A stretch of 64,000 bases of DNA from Thermonema rossianum DSM 10300 (lineage in GTDB: Bacteria > Bacteroidota > Bacteroidia > Cytophagales > Thermonemataceae), in the NCBI RefSeq assembly GCF_000426825.1, contig NZ_AUGC01000004.1, positions 1 through 64,000 on the forward strand. The letters run 5' to 3'. Below the pieces are notes generated by a model. It saw only the letters and a program-made list of their open reading frames with translations, was not told where the DNA came from and made no database searches. Position 1 is the stretch's first letter. The number at the start of each line of letters is the position of its first letter. A program made the position numbers and the translations under genes. Below, piece after piece: positions 14,122 through 58,821 of the stretch.

Positions 14122-15600
14122 CTATTTTTGTAGTTTAATGTTGATATTTATAAAAGCAGCTTCATTCTCTTTTTGCGGTGGATAGAAAGCTTCATACACG
14201 CCACTGAACAGATGGTAAAACCCAAAAGTCTTTTTTTGCTCTTCGGGGTCATTGGCTATGTCCCGGTCGTCGGTGCTGCCGGCTTCCTTGACCCATTCCG
14301 GAAATTGAGGAACAAAAGCTATGTGCAGCTGCTCTTCGGCGAGGGTGCCGGTCGTTAGCGTGAATCGATGAGTAAATGCCTGCTGCGCGTTCTTTTCTTG
14401 TGGGGTGAGCGGGCGTATGCTCAGTTTATAGTTGGGGTTGCTGATGCGCCAAGCAGATGGGTTGGTAAGGCTCGCCTCGTCAAAGGGCAAGCCCGACAAA
14501 TCGACGTTCATATGGAATGTAAAACGTTTTTTTTCGGGGTCTTCTTTTGCATTCAGCAGTTGCCCCGTGCTTAAGCCTGCCAGGTCAAAGCTTCCTTCAC
14601 GAGGGTTGGTCAGCAGCTTAAAAGGGAGGTCTTTTTTGCCGGCGGGCAGCAACACATATTTATGCAGATAGCCTCCTTTGATATTTTCCACTATTTTTTC
14701 CTGAAGAATGCGCTGTATTTGCTCGTCGGTGCCTATAATCCAGATGTAGTAGGGGCGGGTGCCTTCAAACAAGACTGGCGGAGGGACTACCCGGTAGTAA
14801 TAGCCCTTGAAGTTGGATTCCATGTGAAGAACAATGACGCCCAAATCCTGCTTTTTGAGTTGCTCGCTGAACAAGATGCGCATGCCGATGCTTTGGTTGG
14901 TCAAATAATCTTGGGGTGATGAATTAGACTTTGGGCCCGGCGAAAACACAAAATCCGAAACCAACACGGTGGCATTTCTTTCATTCACCTGCTTGAGCAG
15001 ATACTCTACTACTTCTTTTAAGTCGGATACACTGCGGTTGCCGCCCCGTAAGCGAAACACATCCGGCTCCAGTTTTTGAATAAAATCCTCAATATCTTCG
15101 GGAAGGGCATTGAGTTTCTTGTAGGGTACGGTTTGGTTGATGTAATAGAGATTAAGGCTGTCACAAAAATCGGCAATCTTGAAGTCTGCCAACAGGTTAT
15201 AGACGGCCGATTCGAATTGCGTAACGCCGTTTACGTAGCCGTCCATGCTGGCTGAGTTTTCTATAAAGGCATGTACATTGAACTTGCCGGCTTTTTGGGG
15301 AGTACTTGGAGTCCACAGGTTATTTACCGTGAGGTCGTTGCTGCGGCTTTCAAGGTATTTTTTTACGTATTGGTACAGCTTGTCCGGGTCAATGTTACCT
15401 TCTGCATTTTTGAAAGCAGGAATATCGAGTTTTTCAGCTTCTTTTAGAATCTTTTTGAAGTCGTCTTCCGAAAATTCTTTATCCCTGACAAGCCGCTCAA
15501 TTCTTGCATTCAGGTGCTCGATGGGATTGCTTCCACAAGCGACGATTTGTAATAGCAGCACGCATAAAAGTATGGGTAAGCCTTTCTTATGGTATATCAT
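14122..15600 (-). CDS. vWA-like lipoprotein, first gene of the motor operon
   Basis: A 492-residue exported lipoprotein with signal MIYHKKGLPILLCVLLLQ and lipobox IVAC (Cys22). A helical stretch (25-90) precedes a vWA-like domain. That domain starts VHAFIENSASMDGY, so the MIDAS motif reads ExSxS (E114, S116, S118) instead of DxSxS. A second acidic strand, TVLVSDFVFS (D216), matches the vWA strand that bears the third metal ligand. A C-terminal beta-rich region of about 200 residues follows. The protein should sit in the periplasm or outer membrane and could sense or bind a partner. The next gene starts 8 bases downstream. ATG at 15600 directly precedes the signal peptide. Confidence 0.8.
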   Translation of the reverse strand: MIYHKKGLPILLCVLLLQIVACGSNPIEHLNARIERLVRDKEFSEDDFKKILKEAEKLDIPAFKNAEGNIDPDKLYQYVKKYLESRSNDLTVNNLWTPSTPQKAGKFNVHAFIENSASMDGYVNGVTQFESAVYNLLADFKIADFCDSLNLYYINQTVPYKKLNALPEDIEDFIQKLEPDVFRLRGGNRSVSDLKEVVEYLLKQVNERNATVLVSDFVFSPGPKSNSSPQDYLTNQSIGMRILFSEQLKKQDLGVIVLHMESNFKGYYYRVVPPPVLFEGTRPYYIWIIGTDEQIQRILQEKIVENIKGGYLHKYVLLPAGKKDLPFKLLTNPREGSFDLAGLSTGQLLNAKEDPEKKRFTFHMNVDLSGLPFDEASLTNPSAWRISNPNYKLSIRPLTPQEKNAQQAFTHRFTLTTGTLAEEQLHIAFVPQFPEWVKEAGSTDDRDIANDPEEQKKTFGFYHLFSGVYEAFYPPQKENEAAFININIKLQK

Positions 15601-15718
15601 ATTCTTTATTTTTTAAATCACGGCTATGAATATAGCAAATAAAGTTTTGAGATGGGGTAGTTTTGTAATCATTTTAAACTACTCTTAAGAAAGCGCTCAT
15701 CACTGTCTGTCTGTTTGT

Positions 15719-16057
15719 CTATTGTTTGGCTTGTGGGGTATCCGGCTCTATGTAATAGCACGAGCGGATGGTGGTTTTGCGTTTGGTGCCTCTGCCAAGC
15801 TTACCGCCGATGCCTGCTTTTTCAAGTACCACCCGCAGCAAGAAAGCAGTTTTTATAGCTCCGTTAAACCCTACATTGGCAGGTATCTGGAGTGCCTGCC
15901 GGATGAAATTATCCGTTTCGGGTGTTTCCGGATAGTAAATTTTCTCCAGGTGTATGACTTTTCCTTCGGCATATACCTTTGCGGATATGCCTGCGCGCCG
16001 GAGAGCCTCGGCAATCTTAGGCACAAGTTTTTCGGGGTCTTCAATGCGTTTTGTCAT
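15719..16057 (-). CDS. Small basic protein of unknown function
   Basis: A 112-residue protein starting at ATG 16057 (MTKRIEDPEKLVPKIAEAL). A frame upstream to 16165 stays open but would add an unlikely hydrophobic leader. The protein is helical at the N-terminus and strongly basic near the C-terminus (GGKLGRGTKRKTTIRSC). I cannot assign a family. It is 118 bases upstream of the vWA lipoprotein on the same strand, so it could be the first gene of the large operon or a separate unit. Confidence that it is coding rests on length and composition only. Confidence 0.55.
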   Translation of the reverse strand: MTKRIEDPEKLVPKIAEALRRAGISAKVYAEGKVIHLEKIYYPETPETDNFIRQALQIPANVGFNGAIKTAFLLRVVLEKAGIGGKLGRGTKRKTTIRSCYYIEPDTPQAKQ

Positions 16058-16173
16058 GGGTGTTATTATTTTAGGCAAGTCATTTGTATAAATATATTGG
16101 AATTTTATTAAGCAAAGCAAGATAAAAGCAAAAAGATAGCAGATAACATTTTTACAAGCTTGCAACTGCGGTC

Positions 16174-16205
16174 AAAAAAAAGACAACCTTCCAAGAAGGC
16201 TGTCT
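16174..16205 (-). terminator. Rho-independent terminator after the first POT gene
   Basis: The stem AGACAaCCTTC / GAAGGcTGTCT (16181-16205) is followed, on the minus strand, by eight T residues. It lies 32 bases beyond the stop of the transporter gene and separates it from the small basic protein gene. Confidence 0.85.
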
Positions 16206-16236
16206 GGCATTACAGGTAATAAAGGTTCTTTTTTTC

Positions 16237-17763
16237 TTAGTGAATCCCTTTCATGGCTTTGTTGAGCAACGGAGAAAGCAGAATCAGCACAATGCCACTG
16301 CCCAGCATCCAGTAAGTAATGAAGGGGTATAGCTCAAGCATGAAGCCTTGGGTTTCGGCTTGGTGGGCATTGAATTCTTCCAAGAAAGTCTCCAGCATGC
16401 CTGCCAGGTAGTTGCCGGCAGCGAAGCTCGCCATCCACAAGCCCATGACCACGCTCACCAGCTTGCGGGGGGCCAGCTTGGTAATCATCGAAAGCCCAAT
16501 GGGCGAAAGCATCAGCTCACCCAGCGTAAGAATGACATACACGGCTACCAGCCACAGCGGCGACACTTTGCCGTGTTCTGCCAAGGCATCGGCTTGGGTC
16601 ATGATGGCAAAGGCAAGTCCTCCCAGCAGCAGCCCTAAGGCAAATTTAATAGGGGTGCGGGGGTTGAGTTTGCGTTGGTCCAGCTTCAACCACATGACCG
16701 AAAAGAGCGGAGCGAATATCAAAATGGCCAGCGGGTTGATGTTTTGGAACCACGTAGTGGGCACTTCCCAGTTCAATGCTTCTATGAAACGGTTGGTTTT
16801 TTCCTCAGCAAAAAGGTTGAAAGTGCCACCTGCCTGCTCAAAGCCTGCCCAGAAGGCTACATTGAAGAATGCCAGCACCAATATAACGCCCATGCGGCTC
16901 CACTCGGTTGCCCCTTTGGTATTGCTCACAATGACCCAAAGAAGTCCCAAGATGAGGACGGCAAAGCCTGCTTTTACAATCACATCGGTGGTGGTATCGG
17001 GCAGTTGCCGCCACCCCCAGATGATGCCGCCGGTGAGTAAAATAAGCACGACCGCCAAAACAACCAGCTCTGCCCAGTCTTTGTTGGTCAGACGGGTTTG
17101 CCCTAACTTGGCATGCGGCGGCAAACCATACCCATTCAGCGATGTTTCTTTGGCAAAGAGAATCAACATGCTGATGAGCATGCCCACGCCGGCAGAGAAG
17201 AAACCCCAGCCCCAATGCACTTGTTCGCCCAAGGCACCTGCCAAGAAGGGACCTAAAATAGCCCCCAAGTTGATGCCCATGTAAAAAATATTGAAAGCTG
17301 AATCTTTGCGCGGGTCGTTGTCGTCATACAGGTCGCCCACAATAGTGGAGATATTGGGCTTAAAGAAGCCGTTGCCGAAGATTAAACAGCCCAAGCCATA
17401 AGAAAAAATAAAGAAGCGCAAATCGGGGTCCAAGCTGTGTGCCATGAAAGCAGAGGCAGCCAGCAAAAACTGACCGGCAGCCATCATCACAGCCCCCGTA
17501 TATACAGCTTTTCTCTTGCCCAAAAAACGGTCGGCAGCCCATCCGCCAATGATGGGGGTCAAATATACCAAGCCTGTGAAGATGGCATAGATAGCCAAGG
17601 CTTCCTTGCGACCCATGCCAAAGCCGAAGTTATCGAGATTGGCTACCAAGTAGAGTACCAGTAGGGCACGCATGCCGTAATAAGAAAAGCGCTCCCACAT
17701 TTCAGTGGTGAAGAGCACATATAATCCCGAAGGGTGTGTTGTTTTTTTCGTAGAAATACCCAT
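16237..17763 (-). CDS. POT/PTR2 family proton-coupled peptide transporter
   Basis: A 508-residue inner-membrane transporter with about 12 or more membrane helices. It carries the POT signature E-x-x-E-R-F-x-Y-Y-G in helix 1 (TTEMWERFSYYGMRALL) and the typical FYMGINLGAILGPF motif. The family imports di- and tripeptides with protons. ATG at 17763 is preferred over a TTG six bases upstream. A second POT gene lies upstream on the same strand, but a terminator separates them, so each is its own unit. The 50-base leaders of both genes are similar. Confidence 0.93.
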   Translation of the reverse strand: MGISTKKTTHPSGLYVLFTTEMWERFSYYGMRALLVLYLVANLDNFGFGMGRKEALAIYAIFTGLVYLTPIIGGWAADRFLGKRKAVYTGAVMMAAGQFLLAASAFMAHSLDPDLRFFIFSYGLGCLIFGNGFFKPNISTIVGDLYDDNDPRKDSAFNIFYMGINLGAILGPFLAGALGEQVHWGWGFFSAGVGMLISMLILFAKETSLNGYGLPPHAKLGQTRLTNKDWAELVVLAVVLILLTGGIIWGWRQLPDTTTDVIVKAGFAVLILGLLWVIVSNTKGATEWSRMGVILVLAFFNVAFWAGFEQAGGTFNLFAEEKTNRFIEALNWEVPTTWFQNINPLAILIFAPLFSVMWLKLDQRKLNPRTPIKFALGLLLGGLAFAIMTQADALAEHGKVSPLWLVAVYVILTLGELMLSPIGLSMITKLAPRKLVSVVMGLWMASFAAGNYLAGMLETFLEEFNAHQAETQGFMLELYPFITYWMLGSGIVLILLSPLLNKAMKGIH

Positions 17764-25752: not shown

Positions 25753-25817
25753 GACTTGATTCCCCCTTGGCAAGCTTTATTTACCGAGGGGGAATTCAAA
25801 AACATAATGAAACAGTT

Positions 25818-26906
25818 ATGGATAAAAGACAATGCTTTTTTTGGTTATGTATTTTGCTGTTTTCACTTGTTGCTTGCCAAAGTAATGAGGACAATGGTAA
25901 AAACAGCGCAAAAGAGCTGCAGGTGATGAAACTTGCAGTTAATCGTGATTACATTGCGGCGCTAAGTGATACTATCTTTTTTGAAGGTCCGGTTTTTTTG
26001 TTTCCCGTCAGGGTTTCCAATGTGGAAGGTTTTGTTTTCTTGAATGCATCGAACCATTTGGCTTACCTTACCGATAGGCAGTTTCGTATCATTCAAAAAA
26101 TAGCAGAAGAAGGGAAAGGGCCGGGTGAAGTGTCAAATCCCGTTTTGGCCTGGCAGTTGGGTGATTCCATTGGGGTTTATAGCCTTTCAAATAGTACTAT
26201 TAATTACTACCAACTACCTGACTTCCGAAAGGGTATCAGCATAAAAGCAGAAGCAAATTCTTTTGGAGGCAGCATCACAAAAGAACCGGGTACTTCTTTT
26301 GCGTGGCTTACGTCGGCTTTTGACGTGCCGGGACAGATCAATAGAATGGACTTATGTTCGGGTAAGGTAGTGGCTCAAATTGACACGCTTTTACCTCATC
26401 TCCCTGAGAGCAGTGTTGCCCAAGCAAGGATGTTGCATTGCACTGAAGATGGCAAGGTGATAGCTATCGGCAAAGCGCAGCCTTTTATTGAAGTGTTTGA
26501 TGCCAAAAGCGCTCGGTTACTTTACAGACACGATATAAGCAACTGGCCTTTTTTCAAAGAAGTGTGGAAAGACTTTGCTCCCATGATAAAGGAAATGGAA
26601 CAAAATCCTTTTATTGGAGCTTCATACGTAAAGTACACTTATTTCGACGGACAGCGGCTATTTGTGCAGATACCTAATAAGCAAACAAAAGAAGCAGAAA
26701 AAGAAATTAAAGACGCTTATTATCTTGTGATAGACATGAGTGATATAAGTCAACCACGATTAGAGGGTTACATTCAGTGGGAACTTCCCATAGAAGAGGA
26801 CCAAAAAGCCGGAGCACACATCTTAATGGTAGAACACAAAAAGAAAAAAGCGTATGTACAGGGGAATATCTCTCATTTTATTTACACTGTTGATTGGCCT
26901 TTTTAG
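25818..26906 (+). CDS. 6-bladed beta-propeller lipoprotein
   Basis: A 362-residue exported lipoprotein with signal MDKRQCFFWLCILLFSLVAC (lipobox LVAC) followed by a region matching Bacteroidota 6-bladed beta-propeller proteins. The characteristic blade pattern is FRIIQKIAEEGKGPGEVSN, then WQLGDSIGVYSLSNSTINYY. Proteins of this family are surface or periplasmic and often neighbour small exported peptides; the ligand is unknown. ATG at 25818 precedes the signal. The next lipoprotein gene starts inside its 3' end (53-base overlap). Confidence 0.78.
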   Translation: MDKRQCFFWLCILLFSLVACQSNEDNGKNSAKELQVMKLAVNRDYIAALSDTIFFEGPVFLFPVRVSNVEGFVFLNASNHLAYLTDRQFRIIQKIAEEGKGPGEVSNPVLAWQLGDSIGVYSLSNSTINYYQLPDFRKGISIKAEANSFGGSITKEPGTSFAWLTSAFDVPGQINRMDLCSGKVVAQIDTLLPHLPESSVAQARMLHCTEDGKVIAIGKAQPFIEVFDAKSARLLYRHDISNWPFFKEVWKDFAPMIKEMEQNPFIGASYVKYTYFDGQRLFVQIPNKQTKEAEKEIKDAYYLVIDMSDISQPRLEGYIQWELPIEEDQKAGAHILMVEHKKKKAYVQGNISHFIYTVDWPF

Positions 26907-27396
26907 TTGTACACTAAAACAAGAGGAAGGCAAAATTGCGAAGAAAACAGAAGAGGAGAGTTATCAAATACTTCGCAGCTCTGCGGAAGAAGCAAAAAGT
27001 AAATTGTTAAAGGTTGCCTTGGAAAGCTACACTTTCCAGGTAGATGCACCTTCTTTGTGGTTCGTATTTGAAAAAAACGATTGCGACGATTGCATTAATA
27101 AAGGCATTGATGCTTTCCTTCTTCTCCAAAAGCAAATGCCAAATGGAATAGTGCCGGTAGCCATAGGGCTTTCACTTGAAGAATCAGACTATAAGCATTA
27201 TGCAGAGGTCCATGGATTATCACTCACTAATGATATAAATCCGCAAGACAAAGAAAAATTAGGTACACTAAGTACTCCCATGTTGCTATTGATAGACAAG
27301 AATGGAAAAGTGGTAGCATTTGAGAAAATTACCTTCGGAAAGCCCGTGCATACGCAAACACTTGTTTCTATTGCCGGAAACTTGCTTGGCGAATAA
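26854..27396 (+). CDS. Thioredoxin-like lipoprotein
   Basis: A 180-residue lipoprotein: signal MYRGISLILFTLLIGLFSC (lipobox LFSC), a charged linker, then a thioredoxin-like fold. The motif FEKNDCDDCINKG holds a CxxC (CDDC), and the cis-proline region reads LSTPMLLLIDKNGKVV. This is a redox-active periplasmic protein in the style of TlpA/redoxin-like lipoproteins. It probably acts on the secreted proteins encoded with it, possibly the Cys-rich peptide; that link is inference. It starts within the propeller gene, and its 3' end overlaps the opposite-strand decarboxylase by 29 bases. Confidence 0.72.
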   Translation: MYRGISLILFTLLIGLFSCTLKQEEGKIAKKTEEESYQILRSSAEEAKSKLLKVALESYTFQVDAPSLWFVFEKNDCDDCINKGIDAFLLLQKQMPNGIVPVAIGLSLEESDYKHYAEVHGLSLTNDINPQDKEKLGTLSTPMLLLIDKNGKVVAFEKITFGKPVHTQTLVSIAGNLLGE

Positions 27397-31327: not shown

Positions 31328-31349
31328 TGTGCGAGAAGTAGCCAAACTC

Positions 31350-33233
31350 ATGCAGAAAAGTATTTTATTTTTCGTTTTCTCCTTTTTATTTATAGCTCCC
31401 CCGGGCTTTGTGCAGGCGCAGATATTGGACGACAGCACCAAGCAGGTGTATGGCACCTCCACCACCCGTTTTATTACCGAAAAAGATTGGTTGGGGGACT
31501 CTACCGCTTGGCGCTCGCTCGATACGACGGTGCGTGGCTTTCATCGTTACCACCCGGTGCGTCGTAGTCATTATTTACTGCAAGACTTGGGGCATAACTT
31601 AGGTACTGCCACGCAGCCTCTGTTTCCGCAACTGCCGGGTGCCATCGGGCGCCACTACGGGTGGGATGTGTATGCGCCTTATGTGGTGCAAGCCGAAGAG
31701 GTGAAGTATTTCGACACCAAATCGCCTTTTACGCACTTCTATTATGCTTTGGGGGGAAGAGGGCAGCAAATAGCCGAACTGGAATTTAGCCGTAATATTA
31801 CGCCTTTGTGGAATTTTGGATTTCTTTACAGACGTACAAACACTTTCCGCCAGTTTGCGGCTACCGGCAACCGCAACGAAGATGCCATTCTTGAACAGTA
31901 CAATTTTGTGCTTCACATGAGCCGCCGTTCAAAGAACGGGCGCTATCGCTTTTTGGCGCATTACGCACACTTCAATGCGCCGATGCAGGAGTACGGCGGC
32001 ATTCTGATGGACGAAGACGACACCCCCGACAGCCTTTATCAGTATGCCGAAGAGGGGGCACAGCTGTTGGGGGCAAGCAGCTGGCAGACTCAAAACCGCT
32101 ATTACCTTTACCATGACTACCGTCTCGATTCTTTGTTTCAACTCTATCATCGCGGGTTTTATTTGCGCCGCCGCGACCGCTACCACGATGACAAGGTACC
32201 GGACAACCCTCAGACCGGTTTTTATGGCACTTTGCCTTCGGATAAAATCTCGGATGATGTCATATACCGGGAGCTCTACAATGAAGCGGGCATCAAAGGG
32301 GCTGCGAAGGCATTCCGGTACCGTTTGTTCTACCGCAACCGGCTTTATGACTTGCGTTTTGGTTGGGACAACGACTCCACGCAGGGGAACCTGGTATTGA
32401 AGCCCCGCATGGAACACCACATAGGGGGGGCGCTGCGCCTGCGCAAAGAGCGCATGGATGTGTATGCCGAAGGGACTTACCGCCTGGGAAGCGATTACCT
32501 CCTGCGGGCGTCGTTGCGCCTGCCTTGGTTCGAAGCTTCGGCACAGAGCAGTTATGTGTCGCCCACCTGGCAACAGCAGTACTATTGGGGAAGCACCGGC
32601 TATTGGCACAATGACTTTTCGCCTGTGTTTGGCAACCGGCTGGAAGCAGGGATACCGGTACGACTGAAACGGCAGCGCTTGCATCCGTTCGTACGCCTGG
32701 TGCAGGCTTCTTCGTGGGTGTATTTCCAAAAAGACAGTGAAGGCAGGGTGCAGCCCCGCCAAACCGAAGCGTTGCAGGCTATGGGGCAGCTGGGTGTGAA
32801 AACCCACTGGCAATGGAAGTACCTCCATTGGCAAAACGAATTGTATCTGTCAAGGGACTTGGGCGAGCAGAGCGTGTGGCGTTTCCCGGAGGTCTTTTGG
32901 TTTACTTCGCTGTTTTATGAGCGCGACTTGTTTAAGGGCAACATGCAGTTGTGTGTTGGCGTGGACGGGCGCTATCAGAGTGCCTATGAAGCTTATGCTT
33001 ACTCGCCGCTGCACAAGGTGTTTTATCTGGCCGATGAGTATGCGCTGCGCTCTTATTTTGTGGCCGACTTGTATGCCAACATCAAAGTGAAGCAACTGCG
33101 GGCGGCCATACAGTTTACGCATGTAAACCAAAATATGGCACCGCCGCCTTTCAATGGCTACCAAGTGACGCCCTACTATGCCGGCATGCGGCGTACGCTA
33201 TCGCTGGTGCTCAGCTGGATGTTTTTTGAGTAG
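31350..33233 (+). CDS. Putative porin of Bacteroidota
   Basis: A 627-residue outer-membrane protein with a signal peptide (MQKSILFFVFSFLFIAPPG, cut near VQAQ). The large domain is rich in aromatic, alternating strands and ends WMFFE, as outer-membrane barrels do. Hallmark segments are YFDTKSPFTHFYYALGGRG and ELEFSRNITPLWNFGFLYRR, typical of the putative porin family (PF14121). The substrate is unknown. A terminator follows 46 bases later. Confidence 0.85.
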   Translation: MQKSILFFVFSFLFIAPPGFVQAQILDDSTKQVYGTSTTRFITEKDWLGDSTAWRSLDTTVRGFHRYHPVRRSHYLLQDLGHNLGTATQPLFPQLPGAIGRHYGWDVYAPYVVQAEEVKYFDTKSPFTHFYYALGGRGQQIAELEFSRNITPLWNFGFLYRRTNTFRQFAATGNRNEDAILEQYNFVLHMSRRSKNGRYRFLAHYAHFNAPMQEYGGILMDEDDTPDSLYQYAEEGAQLLGASSWQTQNRYYLYHDYRLDSLFQLYHRGFYLRRRDRYHDDKVPDNPQTGFYGTLPSDKISDDVIYRELYNEAGIKGAAKAFRYRLFYRNRLYDLRFGWDNDSTQGNLVLKPRMEHHIGGALRLRKERMDVYAEGTYRLGSDYLLRASLRLPWFEASAQSSYVSPTWQQQYYWGSTGYWHNDFSPVFGNRLEAGIPVRLKRQRLHPFVRLVQASSWVYFQKDSEGRVQPRQTEALQAMGQLGVKTHWQWKYLHWQNELYLSRDLGEQSVWRFPEVFWFTSLFYERDLFKGNMQLCVGVDGRYQSAYEAYAYSPLHKVFYLADEYALRSYFVADLYANIKVKQLRAAIQFTHVNQNMAPPPFNGYQVTPYYAGMRRTLSLVLSWMFFE

Positions 33234-33362: not shown

Positions 33363-36300
33363 TTATTCGAACTCGAAAAGGTCGAAATCGGGCTTTGACG
33401 TGCTCTCGTATAGGTTTTTCAAGCCTGTCAAGCTCAATTCAACTTTGATTTTTTTTGTGTCATCACCAAAGCCGTGTTCATCCATCATGCTGGTTTTGCG
33501 CAATGATTCGAGTCCATGAAACAGCACTCCCGGATGGAAGAGGGTATGGGAAGGTAGGCGTAGTAAACGGCGAACGTCTATCTTGCCACTTTCGTATTTG
33601 ATGTAATAACCTACCCATAGCTCCACTTGGGGGGCGTCTTTTCTAAGGTCGGTAAGAAACATTTCCCATTGCCGGCGGCTGAGCAGGAGGCTAAGAGCAT
33701 TTTCTATACTTTGAGCTTTGCATTCAATTTTTTTGACACGCTCTCCGCTTGATCGGTCTATTACTTCTATGTCGTACGACATGCTGCTTTCCCAATGCTG
33801 ATTGTTCCATTTTATTTCATAGCGGTCGCTGGGGTAGAGGTCGTACAACTTTTCTTTCACTTTTGCTTCGATAGCCTTGCCTGCTTTTTGCTTATCTTCG
33901 ACAGAAACAGATGCCGGTGAGAAGGGAGGTGTGCTACTTGGTGTATAGCCCCGGTACTTATCAAAACTACTTACGAGCTCATCGGCGACCTCAGCATAAC
34001 CCTCTTCTCTTAGTTTTCTTTGAAGCCAATAGATATCACTCTCTTTGCCTTTCGGGACGTAAACAAAAAGTTCATTGCCCTCCCGAGTCAGCAAGAGGTC
34101 ATCTGTGGCTTCTTTTTCCCTGCCATAGAAGAAAGCTGACTTTCCGCCTTCGGAGGAGCGAAGGTAACGTACAATGGGAAAGGATCGGTTACGATAGGTG
34201 TAGATGGACCAAGTGGGTTTTTTAGGCTTGAAGTCTTCCTTGTACCAAGGTGCGTCCCACTCTTGGCTGTTTTTCTGTATCTTTTCATTGTTCCTGTGCT
34301 CTTTTATTTCAAACCCATGGGATGCATCGTCAATCTGCTGCATGTAAACATCACATATCGTTTGAATTAAATCAGCTTTTTCCTCGTCTTTAACAATTAC
34401 TTCCTTCTCAATAATCCACCATAGGACGGCACTTAGGGCAGAGACAGGCAGCTTCGTTACAACAGACTTGAATTTTTGGATGTCCGCTTCCTTGTCTTTC
34501 AATGCCTCTCTTAGCTTAAATTCTTGGCTATTCGTTTTTTTAATGCCCAAGGCATATAGGAACTGTTTGCATTGAGCAAGTTCGCTACCGGAGGCGCCGG
34601 AAAGAAAATGTTGCTTGACAAAATCAGGAAGCATTTCTTCTTCGCAAATCAGGGAGGCTTGTTGTTCTTGTTCAATCAAAAACAGACTTGAGGGGGTAAA
34701 ACCTAAATGCTGCGAGTAAGCATCCCAATCCACGTTTTTAAATCGTGCCTTGTCTTGGTGCCATAGGGAAAAGAGGAATTTCAGCAAATCGATACGCTCT
34801 TCCTCGTCAAGCTGTTCTTTTACATTAGGCATGAACAACTCTGTGAGTTCCTCGTCGTTTTCTGTGTAAGTACGTAAAAAAGGCGCTTGCATCCAGTAAA
34901 CGTAACTTTTTTGATGTGAGCCGCCCTCATCTTTTTTGAAATACCACAGTTTTAAGGGGAAGTCCTCCGCTTTTATGATATTGTTGATATCGCGATAGTG
35001 GTCAGCCAGGATATATGCGGATTCAAGGAACGAAAAGCGACAGGTATAAGTGTGGTAGGGTAATATGTCATAATTTTCTCCATCGGCAGCTTCTATTTTA
35101 ATGCCCTCTAAATAACCTTTCTCCGGGAACAAACTTTGCACCAGCAGCAGGAATGCCAGTTGGGTAGCGTTTTGCACTACGCCGTCGTGGTGGTGTTTCA
35201 GGTCATAAATTACCGAACCGATGAGCTCATGGTCTATGTCCTCGCCTGTTTTGAAATTGAAAAGTTTTTTTAACTGCTCTTCTGAGGGTTGCCCGGATGG
35301 CTTGAAAACGTGGGCAATGTGTTGCACCACCTCTTGAAAAAGAATGATTTCTTGGTTGCGCTCAGGCAGCAGCTCCGAAATAGCAAATTCATAGCTGTTG
35401 TCTTTTTTATACTCCACTCTTACGGTGTTTTGTATGGGCACGGCATCAATGGTGTATTCGGTATTCTCTGCCGCAAGTATAAATGCCTCCCTGAGGGCTT
35501 CTGTTGTTGATGGGTCGTGGGTATATCCGGCATATTCTTTTATTAATATAAGCTCAGGAGACGTCTGTGTGAGTGTCGTTAGATTTGTATAGTCAATTTC
35601 CAAATGGGTGATTTTTTCGCATAATAGCCGTTTGGTGTTCTCCGTAGAGAGTTTACAGCTGCGTAGAAGCCGGGCAGCCTGCTTTATTTCGTTTTGAGGG
35701 AGCAAGTCCACAAGTTTTTCACCTAACTTGTCTCCTTGAAGAACATGCAGCGATGCCTTTGCCTTGCTTTCATAGGCTTGGGGTACAGCATAAAGTATGT
35801 CGTCATGATAATCCCGGATGTATTGTTTCCCAGCGTCATATCCGCTGATATAGTTTAGGCAGCTGTTATCGTGTCTTTGGTGTAGCTGATAGCTACCGGA
35901 GACCTCTGCCAAAACAAAATATTGGAACAAGTCTTTTCCCTGATACTCGAGGAGGGTAAAGAGGGTATCGATGATTTCCGTAGGGCATTGACGAAGCTTT
36001 TCCCAGCCCCATTCCTCAAATGCCAAAGGTGTGGTGCCAAATAGTTCTCTGAGAAAGCGCAGCATCTGCGGATGCGGCAGGGTCACATTCATATGCTGCA
36101 AAACAAAGACATGCAACTGCTCATAAGCTTCTTTGCCTTTCTCTTTGTGGAAACGGCTTAGTTGTGCGTTGTAGTAAATTTCGTTTTCACCTCTCAGAGT
36201 GCCGTCGTAATCCAAAATGTATGCTTTGGCTGTGTTTTTAAAGTCCGGAAGGTTGGGGATTCTGTTTGCTTGCGCTGCTTCTTCTTTTGCCTGCTTATGG

Positions 36301-38666
36301 GTTTTTTGGGTGTACTCATAAAGCGCTATGAGCTTGCTGATGGTAGCTTCTGTGTCGTTGCCGGCAGAATCTATGATGCCTTGGGTGATGTCCTCCCAGC
36401 GTTCAAAAAGGAGGTGGGTATAAATGTCTTCTGCTTTGTGAATCAACTCCCTTTTGAAATCAGCGCTGAAAGCATCGGGATGTATTTCAAAAGGCTTCAA
36501 AAAATCAGGGGTCTCTTCTGAGGGCAGCAACATTTTCGAAAGAGGCAGGCGCTCGCCCCGCCGGTTTTCAAAGATGGCCTTTTCTCTGAGGTCATCAATT
36601 TTGCATAAATTTACTCTTTTAAGCCATAAAACATAGTCTCTCCGCAGGGGTAAGGAGAGGTCACAAATTTTTTTGAGGATGTGTTCGCCATCAAACAGCA
36701 GCTCTTTGAGTTCCTTCGGGTTATTTAAATAGGGAAGTGCCGGCGCAATAACAGCCTTGAAGAATTCTGATTCGCTTTCTTGTTCACTTAAAAGTATGCA
36801 TTTCAAGTTGAGGTCTTTCTTGAACGCTTCCAAACCGGCATATTGGTGGGGCAGTAGCAAAATATCCGTGCTTCCCGACAGCCGTTTGATTGAGTAGAAT
36901 ACATCATCTTCTGCCTCGTAGAACAAGTGGATTTCGTACAGCTTTGCTTTTAAGGATTCATCAGAAAAGTCGCTTTCACTTTTTTCAAGCAACTCCTGCC
37001 ATAGTATCTCCCGGTTTTCCGGCTTAACATTGAGTTGTATATTGATTTGTCTTACCTCGCCGTGCCGGATAAGGTCGAGTGCATCCCATCGCTCCAAGTC
37101 TAACCTCTCTCTGGCATACTTGATAATATGGCTGCCCCGGTGGTATTCCCAAGCAAACCAGAAGTAAGGTCTTCCGTTGGCGTCGGCAGCGCCCCACTCC
37201 GCAGGCTGTATCTGCAGTTGTGTATCTTTGATTTTGACCAGTTCGCTGTTCTTGAGTGTTTGCCGCTCAGTGGTAGGCACCCGTTGCTTGATGGCGTCGA
37301 GCAGGGGAATATAAAGTATGTTTTTGTACCACTCGTTGCGCTGCTCTTCGGGGGATTCGGAGAGCAAGATGGACAAAAAGATGGCACGGTAGCGCTCGTA
37401 ACCTTCCTCCGTTTGGGTGAGTTGGTCCATGCGTTTCTCCAGCATATCGGCGAATGCAGGCAAAAGATGCCGGTTCACGTGGTCGTTTTGCATCTTGCGC
37501 CGGTTGGCTTCCATGCCAAAGGCGTCGGAGTGCAAAATGAAAGCAAATTTGTTGGTTTCGTCCCCCATGGGGAAAAACTTGTAGAAGTTGGGGCTTTGTT
37601 TAATGTAATCTACCTTGCTTTTGTCTTCATATTCCTCTTGCTTATGATAGCCGAAAGCAATGTGTATGTCACACTCTTTCGATTCGGGTTCAATTTCCCG
37701 GAAAAGCGCCTCGTCTGTTTTAATGGTAAAATGCTCGGTGAGAATCTCTTTCCTGTGCAGGTAACACTCGTTGATGCGTATATTTTCCAGTTTCTTCAAG
37801 AAGTTCATGGAGTATTCCATGCCTATGCGCAGGTCTTCTTCGTTTCTTTTCAGCAATTCGTGCTTGTTTTCGCCCAAATCGATAAAGAACAGACTGCCTT
37901 GGCTGAAGGGGCTGAAGTCAAGCCTGTATTGCCGGGTGACCTCCTGCAAGGCAGCGCACATCTGTGCATACTCTTCATGGCTAAAAGGCGTAAAGTCTTC
38001 GTGGTCGAGGTTTTTGACGCTTTCGCCAACGCCTGCGGGGAAGTTGGTCAAAAGAATTTTTGTCAGCAGAGGATAATCCGCAAAAGTACCGGCTAAGTTA
38101 TCTGCCGTCTGCTCTTCGGCAAATTGGACTTCCTCTCCGTTTATGAGGCTTTGCAGTTGCTCCGGGCGGTGCCAGCTGAACAAAACAGGTCCTTTGTATT
38201 TCTCCAGCAGCTCGTGGTTGCCGTCGCCTTTGCCCACCAGGCGGTGCACCAGCTTGAAGCCGATGCCGAAGCGTCCAATCTTATCGCACCGCTCTTTTTT
38301 GGTGCTTTGGGCTATGTTTAAGATAGAGCGAAGCCCTTCGAAGTTGAAAGGCTCGCCGTTGTTCAGCACAATGAAATAGCGCTCGTTGTAAAATGCCCAG
38401 AAATGGGTGGACTGGGCATCTACCGCATTTTGAGCGAATTCATAAAAGGCCTGTTCGTCTTCGGCTATCTTCAATAAAGAAGGCAGGTAGGTGCGTATGT
38501 CTTCTTTGTCGCCATGATACAGCTCAAAAAATCCGAAAGTCGTTCTGTTGCTTCCGGGCAGCCTGATGGAGGTGCCTACAAAATGTTCGTCGTTGCGTTC
38601 GAGAGGTTGCTCTTTTATTTTTTCCCGGTAATAAGTGCGAAAGGCGCGGAGGTTAACGGTTTTCAT
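33363..38666 (-). CDS. NO VEIN/sacsin-type Hsp90-like ATPase with C-terminal DUF3883-like domain
   Basis: A very large cytosolic protein, 1767 residues. The N-terminal GHKL ATPase motifs are YEFAQNAVDAQ (about 77-87), VLNNGEPF and GRFGIGFKLVHRL, the last being the glycine-rich loop. The middle 1400 residues are mostly charged and helical with no motif I can name. Near the C-terminus lies SMSYDIEVID then KKIECKAQ (about 1630-1650), the D...ExK pattern of PD-(D/E)XK-like domains, as in DUF3883 of plant NO VEIN proteins. Bacterial proteins with this architecture are found in defence contexts, so an anti-phage or anti-plasmid role is plausible. It is alone: the porin terminator is on one side and nadE on the other. 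Its sequence appears AT-richer than its neighbours by eye. Confidence 0.8.
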   Translation of the reverse strand: MKTVNLRAFRTYYREKIKEQPLERNDEHFVGTSIRLPGSNRTTFGFFELYHGDKEDIRTYLPSLLKIAEDEQAFYEFAQNAVDAQSTHFWAFYNERYFIVLNNGEPFNFEGLRSILNIAQSTKKERCDKIGRFGIGFKLVHRLVGKGDGNHELLEKYKGPVLFSWHRPEQLQSLINGEEVQFAEEQTADNLAGTFADYPLLTKILLTNFPAGVGESVKNLDHEDFTPFSHEEYAQMCAALQEVTRQYRLDFSPFSQGSLFFIDLGENKHELLKRNEEDLRIGMEYSMNFLKKLENIRINECYLHRKEILTEHFTIKTDEALFREIEPESKECDIHIAFGYHKQEEYEDKSKVDYIKQSPNFYKFFPMGDETNKFAFILHSDAFGMEANRRKMQNDHVNRHLLPAFADMLEKRMDQLTQTEEGYERYRAIFLSILLSESPEEQRNEWYKNILYIPLLDAIKQRVPTTERQTLKNSELVKIKDTQLQIQPAEWGAADANGRPYFWFAWEYHRGSHIIKYARERLDLERWDALDLIRHGEVRQINIQLNVKPENREILWQELLEKSESDFSDESLKAKLYEIHLFYEAEDDVFYSIKRLSGSTDILLLPHQYAGLEAFKKDLNLKCILLSEQESESEFFKAVIAPALPYLNNPKELKELLFDGEHILKKICDLSLPLRRDYVLWLKRVNLCKIDDLREKAIFENRRGERLPLSKMLLPSEETPDFLKPFEIHPDAFSADFKRELIHKAEDIYTHLLFERWEDITQGIIDSAGNDTEATISKLIALYEYTQKTHKQAKEEAAQANRIPNLPDFKNTAKAYILDYDGTLRGENEIYYNAQLSRFHKEKGKEAYEQLHVFVLQHMNVTLPHPQMLRFLRELFGTTPLAFEEWGWEKLRQCPTEIIDTLFTLLEYQGKDLFQYFVLAEVSGSYQLHQRHDNSCLNYISGYDAGKQYIRDYHDDILYAVPQAYESKAKASLHVLQGDKLGEKLVDLLPQNEIKQAARLLRSCKLSTENTKRLLCEKITHLEIDYTNLTTLTQTSPELILIKEYAGYTHDPSTTEALREAFILAAENTEYTIDAVPIQNTVRVEYKKDNSYEFAISELLPERNQEIILFQEVVQHIAHVFKPSGQPSEEQLKKLFNFKTGEDIDHELIGSVIYDLKHHHDGVVQNATQLAFLLLVQSLFPEKGYLEGIKIEAADGENYDILPYHTYTCRFSFLESAYILADHYRDINNIIKAEDFPLKLWYFKKDEGGSHQKSYVYWMQAPFLRTYTENDEELTELFMPNVKEQLDEEERIDLLKFLFSLWHQDKARFKNVDWDAYSQHLGFTPSSLFLIEQEQQASLICEEEMLPDFVKQHFLSGASGSELAQCKQFLYALGIKKTNSQEFKLREALKDKEADIQKFKSVVTKLPVSALSAVLWWIIEKEVIVKDEEKADLIQTICDVYMQQIDDASHGFEIKEHRNNEKIQKNSQEWDAPWYKEDFKPKKPTWSIYTYRNRSFPIVRYLRSSEGGKSAFFYGREKEATDDLLLTREGNELFVYVPKGKESDIYWLQRKLREEGYAEVADELVSSFDKYRGYTPSSTPPFSPASVSVEDKQKAGKAIEAKVKEKLYDLYPSDRYEIKWNNQHWESSMSYDIEVIDRSSGERVKKIECKAQSIENALSLLLSRRQWEMFLTDLRKDAPQVELWVGYYIKYESGKIDVRRLLRLPSHTLFHPGVLFHGLESLRKTSMMDEHGFGDDTKKIKVELSLTGLKNLYESTSKPDFDLFEFE

Positions 38667-38704
38667 AGCAGTTTGTGGTTATGTTTCTAAAAGTTGCCTA
38701 ATTG

Positions 38705-38768: not shown

Positions 38769-40748
38769 TTATTCCATCTCGTCGAGGGCGCGCAGTTCCA
38801 CTTCAAAGCCGCCCGAAAGGATAGGGAAGCGGCACCATGTCTTGGGGTCAAGATTGGCGTCGTCCAAGTGGAAGGAGGGCGCATAGCGCTCGCGCTTCCA
38901 TTGGTTGCGGCACCACAAGCGGAAAAATTTCTTCACCCATTCTTTGATGGTGGCGGCATCATATTGCGGGTACTTCTCTTTGAGCAGACGGTAGCAATCT
39001 ACCGGGGCGCGTTTGTCGCGGATGGCTGCCTCTTCGATGTCATCCAGCACCTCATAAGGCATGAGGTCGGCTTCGTCGGTTTGCTTGCTATCGGGTGGAC
39101 GCAGCTCGGCAGTAGGCTGTTGTTCGTTCACATAGCGCAGGGCAGGGAGGCGGTAACGCCCGCCCAAACCTTCGGTTTCCATCCAACGCAGCCAGCGCCG
39201 CAAATAGGCTTTGTCTATGCCTGCGATGGGGCTGAGCCCGCCGGCGGTGTCGCCGTCCATGGTGGCATAGCCTACAGCTGCCTCGGAGCGGTTGCTGGTT
39301 GCCAACAGCAGCGCATTTTTCAGGTTGGCAAGCATCCAGATACTTGGTGCGCGCCCGCGTGCCTGTATGTTTTGCAGGGTGAGGTCGTCTTGCTCCCAGT
39401 TGAGGGGGCGCCCAATGCTGCGGCTGATGAGGTCTATATATTGCTGAATGATGGCATCTACATCCAAGTAATGATATTTGGCGTGGATGGCTTTTGCCAG
39501 CTCTTCGGCAGCGCGGCGTGTGGTTTCGGAGCTGTTGCGTGTGGCTTGGTAAGCCACCGTAATCATCTTTTGTGCAATCTCGTCGGCCGTTTGGCAGTCT
39601 TGTATTGCCTGAAAATATGATAATTTTTGCTTGAAGCCGTCCAAGCCCAATTGGCGAATGCCTTCATCGATGAGCATGCGGCAAAGCACGCTGATGGCAG
39701 AAGAGTCGGCACCTCCGCTCAAAGAGATGACAAAGCCACGGGAGCGGCTCTTGCGCATATAATCGAACAAGCCCAGCATCATAGCCCGGGCAAACTCCTC
39801 TTCTTTGAGGAAGGGGCTGTGTTCCCAGCCGGCTTCTTGGGGATGCCATGCCTCGGGGCGGATGTCCGGGAAGTTGAAGTCCACTTCCACTACGTGTCCG
39901 AAGTCTTTATCAACGGCAAACTGTGTTTGCATTTGCACTTGTGCCAGGCGCGAAAGCTCTACGTCAATGACTGCCGGAGTTACGTTGTAGTCGTCGAAAG
40001 TGAGGCGTTCACCCACGGCAATGAGTTGTCCGTTGCAGGCGATGATGCCGCCCCCGTCATAGATGGCGCGCCCTGCTTCATTGCCCAGCAGGTTGCTATA
40101 TACATAGGTTACTCCAAATGCCCGAGAGCCGTCTAAGATAAAACGCTTGCGCACTTCCAGCTTGCCAAAAGCAAAATGGCTGGCACTGGGATTCAGAATC
40201 ACGTCGATGCCGTGCAAATACAATTGGCGCCCCGGGCGGTTGGCAACCCAAGCATCTTCGCATATTTCAAAACCTATTTTGATATCGCCTACCCGGAAGT
40301 AAATATCGCCTACTTTGTAGTCTTTGCCTTCGATGCGTACGGTGGTGTAGCCCTCTTGTGTCCAGGGGGTAAACCAACGGGGCTCGTAATGAATGCCATT
40401 GCCTGCCAGGAATTTTTTTGCGACGAAGCCGGCAATGTTGCCATCTACCAGCAAACAAGCACAGTTGAAAGCTTTGTTTTGCACCAGCAGGGGCAAACCT
40501 ACCGATACCACCATGCCGCGCGTATGGGGGCGCAAAGCCAGCAGGTATTTAAGCGATTGCCGGAAGGTATTGGGCGCAAAGAAAGCATCCTCGCAACCAT
40601 AGCCCGAAATGCACAGTTCAGGCAGGCAAAGCAAACTGACGCCCTGTGCGCGTGCCTGCTCTATGGCACCCACAATACGTTGAAAATTACCTTCCCAGTC
40701 CAGTGGCGTTTGATTTACGACGCCCGCACCTACTTTTATCAGTTTCAT
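38769..40748 (-). CDS. nadE: Glutamine-dependent NAD+ synthetase
   Basis: A 659-residue cytosolic enzyme with a nitrilase-like glutaminase domain (about 1-290) and an ATP-dependent NAD synthetase domain (about 320-650). It makes NAD from deamido-NAD using glutamine-derived ammonia. Motifs are LCLPELCISGYGCED (glutaminase Glu), FEICEDAWV near 162 (nucleophile Cys), and SLSGGADSSAISVL near 343 (pyrophosphatase P-loop). The large two-domain form is standard for this group of bacteria. It stands alone, with a possible promoter at 40790-40822. Confidence 0.95.
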   Translation of the reverse strand: MKLIKVGAGVVNQTPLDWEGNFQRIVGAIEQARAQGVSLLCLPELCISGYGCEDAFFAPNTFRQSLKYLLALRPHTRGMVVSVGLPLLVQNKAFNCACLLVDGNIAGFVAKKFLAGNGIHYEPRWFTPWTQEGYTTVRIEGKDYKVGDIYFRVGDIKIGFEICEDAWVANRPGRQLYLHGIDVILNPSASHFAFGKLEVRKRFILDGSRAFGVTYVYSNLLGNEAGRAIYDGGGIIACNGQLIAVGERLTFDDYNVTPAVIDVELSRLAQVQMQTQFAVDKDFGHVVEVDFNFPDIRPEAWHPQEAGWEHSPFLKEEEFARAMMLGLFDYMRKSRSRGFVISLSGGADSSAISVLCRMLIDEGIRQLGLDGFKQKLSYFQAIQDCQTADEIAQKMITVAYQATRNSSETTRRAAEELAKAIHAKYHYLDVDAIIQQYIDLISRSIGRPLNWEQDDLTLQNIQARGRAPSIWMLANLKNALLLATSNRSEAAVGYATMDGDTAGGLSPIAGIDKAYLRRWLRWMETEGLGGRYRLPALRYVNEQQPTAELRPPDSKQTDEADLMPYEVLDDIEEAAIRDKRAPVDCYRLLKEKYPQYDAATIKEWVKKFFRLWCRNQWKRERYAPSFHLDDANLDPKTWCRFPILSGGFEVELRALDEME

Positions 40749-57621: not shown

Positions 57622-58821
57622 ATGCATGACCACCACACCATATTATATGTAGATGACGAACGCTATAATTTAAAAGCATTTTATCATGCTTTCAAGCCAT
57701 CTTACCATATCGTAACGGCTCAAAGCGGAGAAGAAGCATTGAAGGTGCTTGCCACTCAGCCGGTAGCGGTGCTTATTACCGACCGCCGCATGCCGGATAT
57801 GGATGGCATCGAGCTGCTCAAACGGGTGGCAGAGAACTACCCGCAGGTCGTTACCATGATGCTGACAGCTTACGGGGACAAAGAAGCCTTGATGCAGGCT
57901 ATCAATGAAGGGCATGTGTATGCCTTCGTTACCAAACCATGGAATGAGGTCGATCTGCGCCTTAAAATAGATAAAGCCCTTGAACATTTTCGTCTGTTGC
58001 GCAAAAACGAACAGCTGGTTCGTGAGTTGCAAGAGGCCAATGCCCAACTGGAAGAACGGATAGAGGCACGCACGCGGGAGCTGTCGCAGCGCAACCGCGA
58101 ATTGGAGCGCCTGACTGCCTTGCAAAACCGCTTGTTTTCCATTATTTCGCATGATTTGCGTGCGCCTTTGCATACGCTTTCCAACTTCTTGCAAATATTT
58201 ATCAATTACGGTGAAAAAGGGTTTACCGTAGAAGAGTTGGTGCATACGGCGCAGGATATCCACACCCATCTGCAAAACATACAGCAACTGCTCAATAACT
58301 TAATTCAATGGGCCAAGTTGCAACTACAAGAAGTCGACTACTCTTTGAACCCCGTGGACTTGCAAGATTTGTTTGATGAAAATGGCGCTTTGGTGCGTCA
58401 AACGGCCATAGAGAAACAGATAGATTTGCAAGTACAACCGGCAGGGGGAATCAAGGTAATAGCCAACCGGGAGATGCTCAACTTTGTATTGCGCAACCTG
58501 TTGTACAATGCCCTGAAATTTACGCCGGAAGGAGGCAAGGTGGCTCTGACTGCTCTTTATCAAGGGAACGGCCACTGCCATATATTGGTGGAAGATTCGG
58601 GCGTGGGCATGCCTTCCTGGATGATTACACAAATCATGGAGGGTAAAAGCATAAGCCGCCCCGGTACGAAGGGCGAACGCGGTACAGGCTTGGGCTTGGC
58701 CTTGTGCCATGAGTTTGTAAAGCGAATGAACGGAAAAATGGACATAGAAAGCGAAGAAGGCGAGGGGACCCGTGTTTCTATCCGTCTTCCTTTGTATGCC
58801 GGACCGGAAGCTGAATCGTGA
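57622..58821 (+). CDS. Receiver-histidine kinase fusion protein
   Basis: A 399-residue soluble protein. A receiver domain (1-120) carries the phosphoacceptor D54 (LITDRRMPD) and K105 in VTKPW. A coiled coil of about 40 residues leads to a histidine kinase: HisKA with H177 in IISHDLRAPLHTL, N-box FVLRNLLYNALKFT, and EDSGVGMPS and GERGTGLGLAL for ATP binding. The order receiver-then-kinase lets an upstream kinase control it. Its 3' end overlaps the opposite-strand sensor kinase by 44 bases. Confidence 0.93.
   Translation: MHDHHTILYVDDERYNLKAFYHAFKPSYHIVTAQSGEEALKVLATQPVAVLITDRRMPDMDGIELLKRVAENYPQVVTMMLTAYGDKEALMQAINEGHVYAFVTKPWNEVDLRLKIDKALEHFRLLRKNEQLVRELQEANAQLEERIEARTRELSQRNRELERLTALQNRLFSIISHDLRAPLHTLSNFLQIFINYGEKGFTVEELVHTAQDIHTHLQNIQQLLNNLIQWAKLQLQEVDYSLNPVDLQDLFDENGALVRQTAIEKQIDLQVQPAGGIKVIANREMLNFVLRNLLYNALKFTPEGGKVALTALYQGNGHCHILVEDSGVGMPSWMITQIMEGKSISRPGTKGERGTGLGLALCHEFVKRMNGKMDIESEEGEGTRVSIRLPLYAGPEAES

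Follow-up and report, generated by a model that had tools for sequence, protein, structure and literature searches.

The window analyzed here is a 64,000-nucleotide stretch of DNA from Thermonema rossianum DSM 10300. It contains a tmtA-like gene on the minus strand, with exact coordinates 33363..38666, an ATG start, and 1767 codons free of internal stops. The gene begins 102 bp after a NAD synthetase gene on the same strand (38769-40748, minus), and a Porin_10 gene (31329-33233, plus) is convergent with it on the other side, so that it stands alone between the two. Tiamat is by definition a single stand-alone gene. The features of the gene and its product are listed below.

33363..38666, minus strand: tmtA-like gene (Tiamat), a single gene of 1767 aa (open reading frame and profile matches)
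38632..38675, minus strand: start-codon region of tmtA, a degraded counterpart of which survives in the same-genus genome G001 (local alignment)
37752..38558, minus strand: sacsin/Hsp90-type ATP-binding (GHKL) domain, residues about 37-305 (Pfam, NCBIfam, model, and sacsin SR1 entries 5v44/5v45/5v47, Z 12.4)
38418..38441, minus strand: ATPase motif I, E76-N80-D83 (sequence; 65 of 65 alignment rows)
38247..38387, minus strand: ATPase motifs N102-N103-G104 and G131..G134..G136-K138, residues 94-140 (alignment)
37083..37751, minus strand: Hsp90/MORC-like middle (transducer) domain, residues about 306-528 (model and fold match)
37500..37502, minus strand: R389, which may be the catalytic arginine of the middle domain (invariant, 62 of 62 rows)
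33903..37082, minus strand: central region, residues 529-1588, mostly helical (model and fold searches)
33597..33902, minus strand: predicted NOV_C / PD-(D/E)xK domain, residues about 1589-1690 (Pfam in relatives, alignment, weak fold match)
33771..33773, minus strand: D1632, predicted nuclease residue (alignment with relatives)
33717..33725, minus strand: E1648-C-K1650, predicted nuclease ExK motif (alignment with relatives)

The locus itself does not look like a defense island. Queries for helicase, reverse transcriptase, DarT, and NOV_C taken from relatives had no matches among open reading frames of at least 120 aa between 23 and 48 kb of the window, and a PADLOC scan of eight neighbors of tmtA gave no convincing defense gene, the best match (E 0.0014) being to a histidine kinase. 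The GC content of the gene is 45.8%, compared to 49.4 +/- 3.5% for 44 mechanically picked window open reading frames; the offset is about one standard deviation, and a foreign origin is therefore without support. Elsewhere in the window, two overlapping open reading frames at 25767-27396 (plus) have low GC, 0.41 and 0.39 against the window mean of 0.49 (n=44), the first of them with no Pfam match at E<=1e-5, and a gene at 60778-63195 (minus), adjoining a histidine kinase gene at 58778-60781, encodes a TPR protein that also contains a caspase domain (Peptidase_C14, 8.6e-19).

Judged by its sequence, the window protein is a member of Tiamat, a kind of system already known. The PADLOC TmtA model PDLC03970 matches it with 1390.8 bits (E=0) across residues 1-1692, corresponding to positions 1-1537 of the 1552 in the profile, and this near-full-length match, together with the sacsin-type domain found by Pfam and NCBIfam, places it in the family. 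The general plan also agrees, that of a single giant protein with a sacsin/HATPase N terminus. The TmtA models encountered in PADLOC run from PDLC03964 to PDLC03972, and six further ones match weakly, with their best stretches within the first 455 residues. A sequence-only reading of the gene had proposed a single-gene anti-phage module, and the family assignment bears this out. Pfam gave no match at E<=1 to DUF4263, DnaJ, or HEPN in the protein and a single SACS stretch, and PADLOC gave neither a Shedu match at E<=1 nor a match to the MkoA/MkoC helicase of Mokosh. The original Tiamat paper is reportedly that of Millman et al. in 2022, and the family is said to have been named for phage protection. 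In the portions of the later literature consulted, the mechanism of Tiamat is listed as unknown (PMC12926258, PMC10482375), the system is almost always chromosomal in Actinobacteria (PMC10482375), and in Pseudomonas it sits in genomic-island hotspots (PMC12629846).

Residues 1-640 are confidently modeled as a sacsin/Hsp90/MORC-type ATPase with its middle domain. Pfam SACS (36.1 bits; cut-off 32.8) and the NCBIfam sacsin N-terminal domain (63.2 bits; cut-off 50) are both above cut-off in the window protein, Pfam HATPase_c_3 is below it, and all of the motifs are present, in agreement with the Hsp90-like ATPase with intact motifs recognized previously. Structure prediction, also proposed in the sequence-only reading, was carried out with 48 of 60 prepared slices of relatives and gave an Hsp90/MORC/sacsin-like model with a mean pLDDT of 90.9 and a pTM of 0.88. 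Its fold matches to Hsp90 (6xlg, Z 12.9, 266 aligned, rmsd 5.5), MORC3 (5ix2, Z 12.5), sacsin SR1 (5v44, Z 12.4, 161 aligned, rmsd 2.9), and TopoVI-B (1mx0, Z 12.3) are tied within one unit of Z across model residues 37-528, and a sequence search for solved relatives of the protein returned sacsin entries only.

In a 65-sequence alignment, F107 is invariant, as are N102, G104, G131, G134, G136, and K138, which lie outside the search patterns. The invariance of E76, N80, and D83 is little independent evidence, because the search patterns covered that stretch. Classical Hsp90 has an Asp as its adenine-binding residue, and the TmtA family appears to carry Asn (N102) in its place. R389, invariant in 62 of 62 rows, seems to be placed like the catalytic arginine of the middle domain, R380 in Hsp90 and R474 in sacsin; the latter is described as a candidate for that role in a partly consulted paper that also calls ATP binding by sacsin domains debatable (PMC9880540). 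The likeness to animal sacsin (SACS) thus covers the ATP-binding domain subfamily, by sequence and fold, and probably the middle-domain arginine. Sacsin differs in having this region in triplicate, along with J and HEPN domains (PMC9880540) and a ubiquitin-like domain (PMC3710099), at least in the sections of those papers drawn on, where the window protein has one module and a nuclease-like tail; in addition, the NN stretch of sacsin is one column out of register with N102-N103.

The region between the ATPase motifs and the tail had been left as 1400 unassigned residues. About 1060 of these remain so, and the rest now fall within the Hsp90/MORC-like module, since residues up to about 528 align with its N-terminal and middle domains. 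No convincing fold was found for the central region (best Foldseek E 0.028 at probability 0.10; best Z 7.2 over 66 residues). The model covering center and tail, made from 19 sequences including the window (18 of 22 prepared slices), is weak overall, with a mean pLDDT of 71 and a pTM of 0.42, and the fold searches therefore neither support nor refute a novel fold for the center. Two large TmtA forms, L035 (in genome G052) and L037 (G008), match the same stretch of the model twice in succession (positions 546-843 and 618-814), which suggests a duplicated central module.

The tail of the window protein is predicted to be a NOV_C-type PD-(D/E)xK nuclease, an assignment that is supported, not proved. 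In the protein itself, NOV_C (PF13020) scores 19.3 bits (E 0.0012; Pfam cut-off 22.1) and PDDEXK_15 scores 14.1 bits (cut-off 27), and with its own scores below cut-off the assignment rests on relatives and on a weak fold match. In a first Pfam scan, NOV_C was above cut-off in seven of ten relative C termini (L045, L044, L048, L053, L086, L094, and L112) and did not reach it in L043, L089, and L090; in a second scan it did so in one of ten (L085). L043 lacks a Pfam NOV_C match yet joins the NOV_C tail alignment. A profile of the nine NOV_C-tailed proteins, run against all 71 sequences, reached E<0.05 only for those nine and L112. The D and the (D/E)xK are present in all nine (the window and eight aligned relatives), a conservation that is partly circular because a search pattern for this very motif served in the initial choice of the group. 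With these findings, the nuclease-like domain that had been suggested from the C-terminal D...ExK gains support; the lysine of that motif is K1650, and the ATPase asparagine of the same reading is N80.

The order of elements in the tail fits the PD-(D/E)xK fold, with pLDDT of about 60-84 for the helix at 1589-1610 and the strands that follow and lower model confidence, about 46-53, for the second helix (1664-1675) and the last strand. The restriction-endonuclease-like structure 3ijm matches weakly (Foldseek probability 0.97, E 0.52; Z 5.0, 95 aligned, rmsd 4.3). NOV_C is named in Pfam after the plant protein NO VEIN, to which the comparison extends at the level of that domain alone, and we take DUF3883 to be its older name. 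In the part of an earlier survey that was consulted, DUF3883 is called a novel restriction-endonuclease domain (PMC3710099). A separate gene of 446 aa lies upstream of TmtA in L043 (602-1939), and 132 residues of its product are 41% identical to the NOV_C tail of Raineya TmtA.

A scan of genome contigs for relatives gave 70 loci, mostly from Bacteroidota, with others from cyanobacteria, Planctomycetota, Methylococcales, Campylobacteraceae, KSB1, Calditrichaeota, Sphingomonadales, and Poribacteria. A complete open reading frame of at least 1100 aa is present in 57 of these loci; eight run off the contig end, and five are short, two of them frame-broken. The PDLC03970-type match extends to NOV_C-tailed relatives (1213-1476 bits in L043, L044, and L053; 605 in the more distant L085). 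We built a tree of 57 rows, the window and 56 relatives, leaving out L112 as too distant. By their tails, nine rows are NOV_C (window included), 14 carry a fused SF1 helicase, one carries DarT, nine have a tail without D/ExK, and 24 have no assigned tail, for which reason a nuclease does not seem to be required of the TmtA family. The helicase label comes from Pfam in L068 and, for the other 13, from BLAST clustering of the last 400 residues with L068. The DarT tail, that of L083, was recognized by Pfam (5.1e-26) and PADLOC (2.3e-11).

The tail without D/ExK is defined by a profile built from the nine sequences that carry it, and a Pfam scan of five of the nine gave no convincing match. Its alignment with NOV_C is weak (hhalign probability 17%, E 0.0014), and the idea that it is a dead NOV_C domain was kept as a lead at that score and not adopted. 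Of the 24 rows with no assigned tail, the Pfam scan covered four (L065, L073, L089, and L090), and the profile of the D/ExK-less tail picks up three, L059, L060, and L061 (E 6e-10 to 2e-7). L089 and L090 may be interrupted helicase forms, because a helicase-like open reading frame lies 1.4-1.7 kb downstream in both. On the tree, which was made by a quick method and has several long branches, the window among them, the tail labels need 10 changes where the least possible number is 4, and the starred branches alone force at least three changes each for NOV_C, the fused helicase, and the tail without D/ExK.

BLAST of neighboring open reading frames located an SF1 helicase gene downstream in all nine loci with the D/ExK-less tail, at a gap of 39 bp or less in eight and of 2354 bp in L063. 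None of the nine NOV_C loci has such a gene, although the fair count is none of seven, because L045 and L086 hold less than 1 kb downstream. The tail groups had been set before the helicase gene was noticed; as the rows share ancestry, the association is a pattern and not a test. In L069, the helicase partner (15007-17322) carries a C-terminal PIN nuclease domain (2.6e-19).

The sequence-only reading had counted the lack of a defense-island context in relatives as a point against a defense role. Instead, a recognized defense gene lies near TmtA in 7 of 11 hand-picked relative loci, a raw count without a control set. PADLOC found a reverse transcriptase UG19 and its associated protein beside TmtA in L053, and L043 has the same pair by homology to that of L053 (75% and 64% identity). 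Olokun OloA/OloB lies near TmtA in L085, type I restriction in L068, L088, and L071, and an RT-protease in L051; L045, L094, and L063 had no defense neighbors in those scans, and L056 had weak matches only. PADLOC was also run on 86 of the 127 listed neighbors, from 20 of 26 selected loci, and again gave raw counts without a control set: the MkoA, MkoC, PDC-S37, and PDC-S68 models were matched by nine of the 86 each (helicase models overlap), DpdJ by five, and reverse-transcriptase models by three, among the 25 of 268 families listed. The Mokosh models thus recur beside TmtA relatives, whereas no helicase gene of this kind lies near the window copy.

Of 59 related genomes, a set that includes that of the window itself, 9 have a TmtA match, which in some is weak or partial; within the family of the window organism, four of eight genomes match strongly, in one case with the match truncated at the end of a contig. 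No convincing match was obtained in G001, a genome of the same genus (best E 7.7e-4), where 215 nt separate the matches to NAD synthetase and porin. At the expected place in this interval there is a trace of the tmtA start: 45 columns with 36 identities, 7 mismatches, and 2 gaps, at a local score of 41, which none of 1000 dinucleotide shuffles reached (maximum 35). This one short match in one genome suggests that tmtA was lost in G001. A recent insertion in the window genome is less likely, since the 215-nt "empty site" keeps the degraded start at the same place. The repeats listed at the gene borders were only short or degenerate pairs, which lends no support to direct repeats or a mobile element there, and searches of plasmids, phages, and viral contigs gave no copy of tmtA at their sensitivity.

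We consider it fairly probable that the window protein is a chromosomal, single-gene Tiamat (TmtA) defense protein in its nuclease-tailed form, in which the ATPase senses infection and the tail is released to cut. The center and the middle domain would restrain the tail, a phage component or a phage nucleic-acid structure would change the ATP-driven conformation, and the released tail would cut nucleic acid. Its target would more likely be the phage genome than host nucleic acid, the cutting of which would kill the cell. That other nucleic-acid-acting modules, SF1 helicase and DarT, take the tail position in relatives is expected of an effector. A Tiamat protein in which the ATPase core itself protects, and in which the NOV_C tail binds nucleic acid or a partner and does not cut, would accommodate the nine D/ExK-less rows with their faint resemblance to NOV_C and the 24 rows with no assigned tail. 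We regard it as unlikely, given that D and (D/E)xK are kept in the window and eight relatives, a group in part picked by motif, and that the downstream SF1 helicase accompanies the D/ExK-less tails and not the NOV_C group, as if it replaced a lost activity.

Two other readings would move the protein away from phages. DNA restriction often involves PD-(D/E)xK domains, and the target might accordingly be plasmids or transposons; with a family said to be named for phage protection, we think this quite improbable. Slighter still is the chance that the protein plays no part against phages and is instead a stress protein that acts like a chaperone, much as sacsin does in animals. Sacsin, a proteostasis protein, supplies the only solved relatives by sequence, and the window locus is not island-like, in keeping with such a role; against it stand the near-full-length match to a defense family, the patchy presence in related genomes, the effector-like exchange of tails, and the defense neighbors of relatives.

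The nuclease-tailed Tiamat reading has a close analogue in VcSduA (Shedu type I-D, paraMORC3), which combines an N-terminal GHKL ATPase, a clamp-like middle domain, and a C-terminal PD-(D/E)xK nuclease. In the part of that report drawn on here, the E27A (GHKL ATPase) and K557A (PD-(D/E)xK) changes each abolish phage protection, and protection is seen at all multiplicities tested, from which its authors infer direct restriction with the host spared (PMC12137116). VcSduA belongs to another family, because its nuclease is DUF4263 where that of the window protein is NOV_C, and with its catalytic lysine at residue 557 it lacks a center comparable in length to that of the window protein, with its roughly 1060 residues. 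If our reading is true, the window protein would join VcSduA as a second example of a PD-(D/E)xK nuclease coupled to an Hsp90-like ATPase, here with a domain-level relationship between the core and sacsin, the human ataxia protein. The predicted intact nuclease and the relatives with DarT or helicase at the same place would make the mechanism of Tiamat simply testable, through K1650, N80, and a comparison of tails.

The possible novelty lies in the swapping of tails on a shared TmtA core. Exchangeable TmtA tails were not found in the portions examined of the literature (PMC12926258, PMC10482375, PMC12629846, PMC11811056, PMC10952713, PMC13092281, PMC3710099, PMC9880540, and PMC12137116), and they may be published already. 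We put at about even the chance that Tiamat is a platform, in which a sacsin-type, ATP-driven sensor core is combined with exchanged effectors that act on nucleic acid, namely the NOV_C nuclease, DarT, or an SF1 helicase, the last either fused to the core or encoded by a gene of its own alongside the D/ExK-less tail; the window protein would then be its minimal, self-contained nuclease form.

Two members of the survey have arrangements of their own. In a KSB1 bacterium, L083 (10001-14818) encodes a TmtA core fused to a DarT ADP-ribosyltransferase, with no DarG-like antitoxin partner among the five neighbors scanned. L038 (G011) is a distant relative of 1415 aa that lies in a row of four large open reading frames on the same strand (1051, 1415, 489, and 789 aa).
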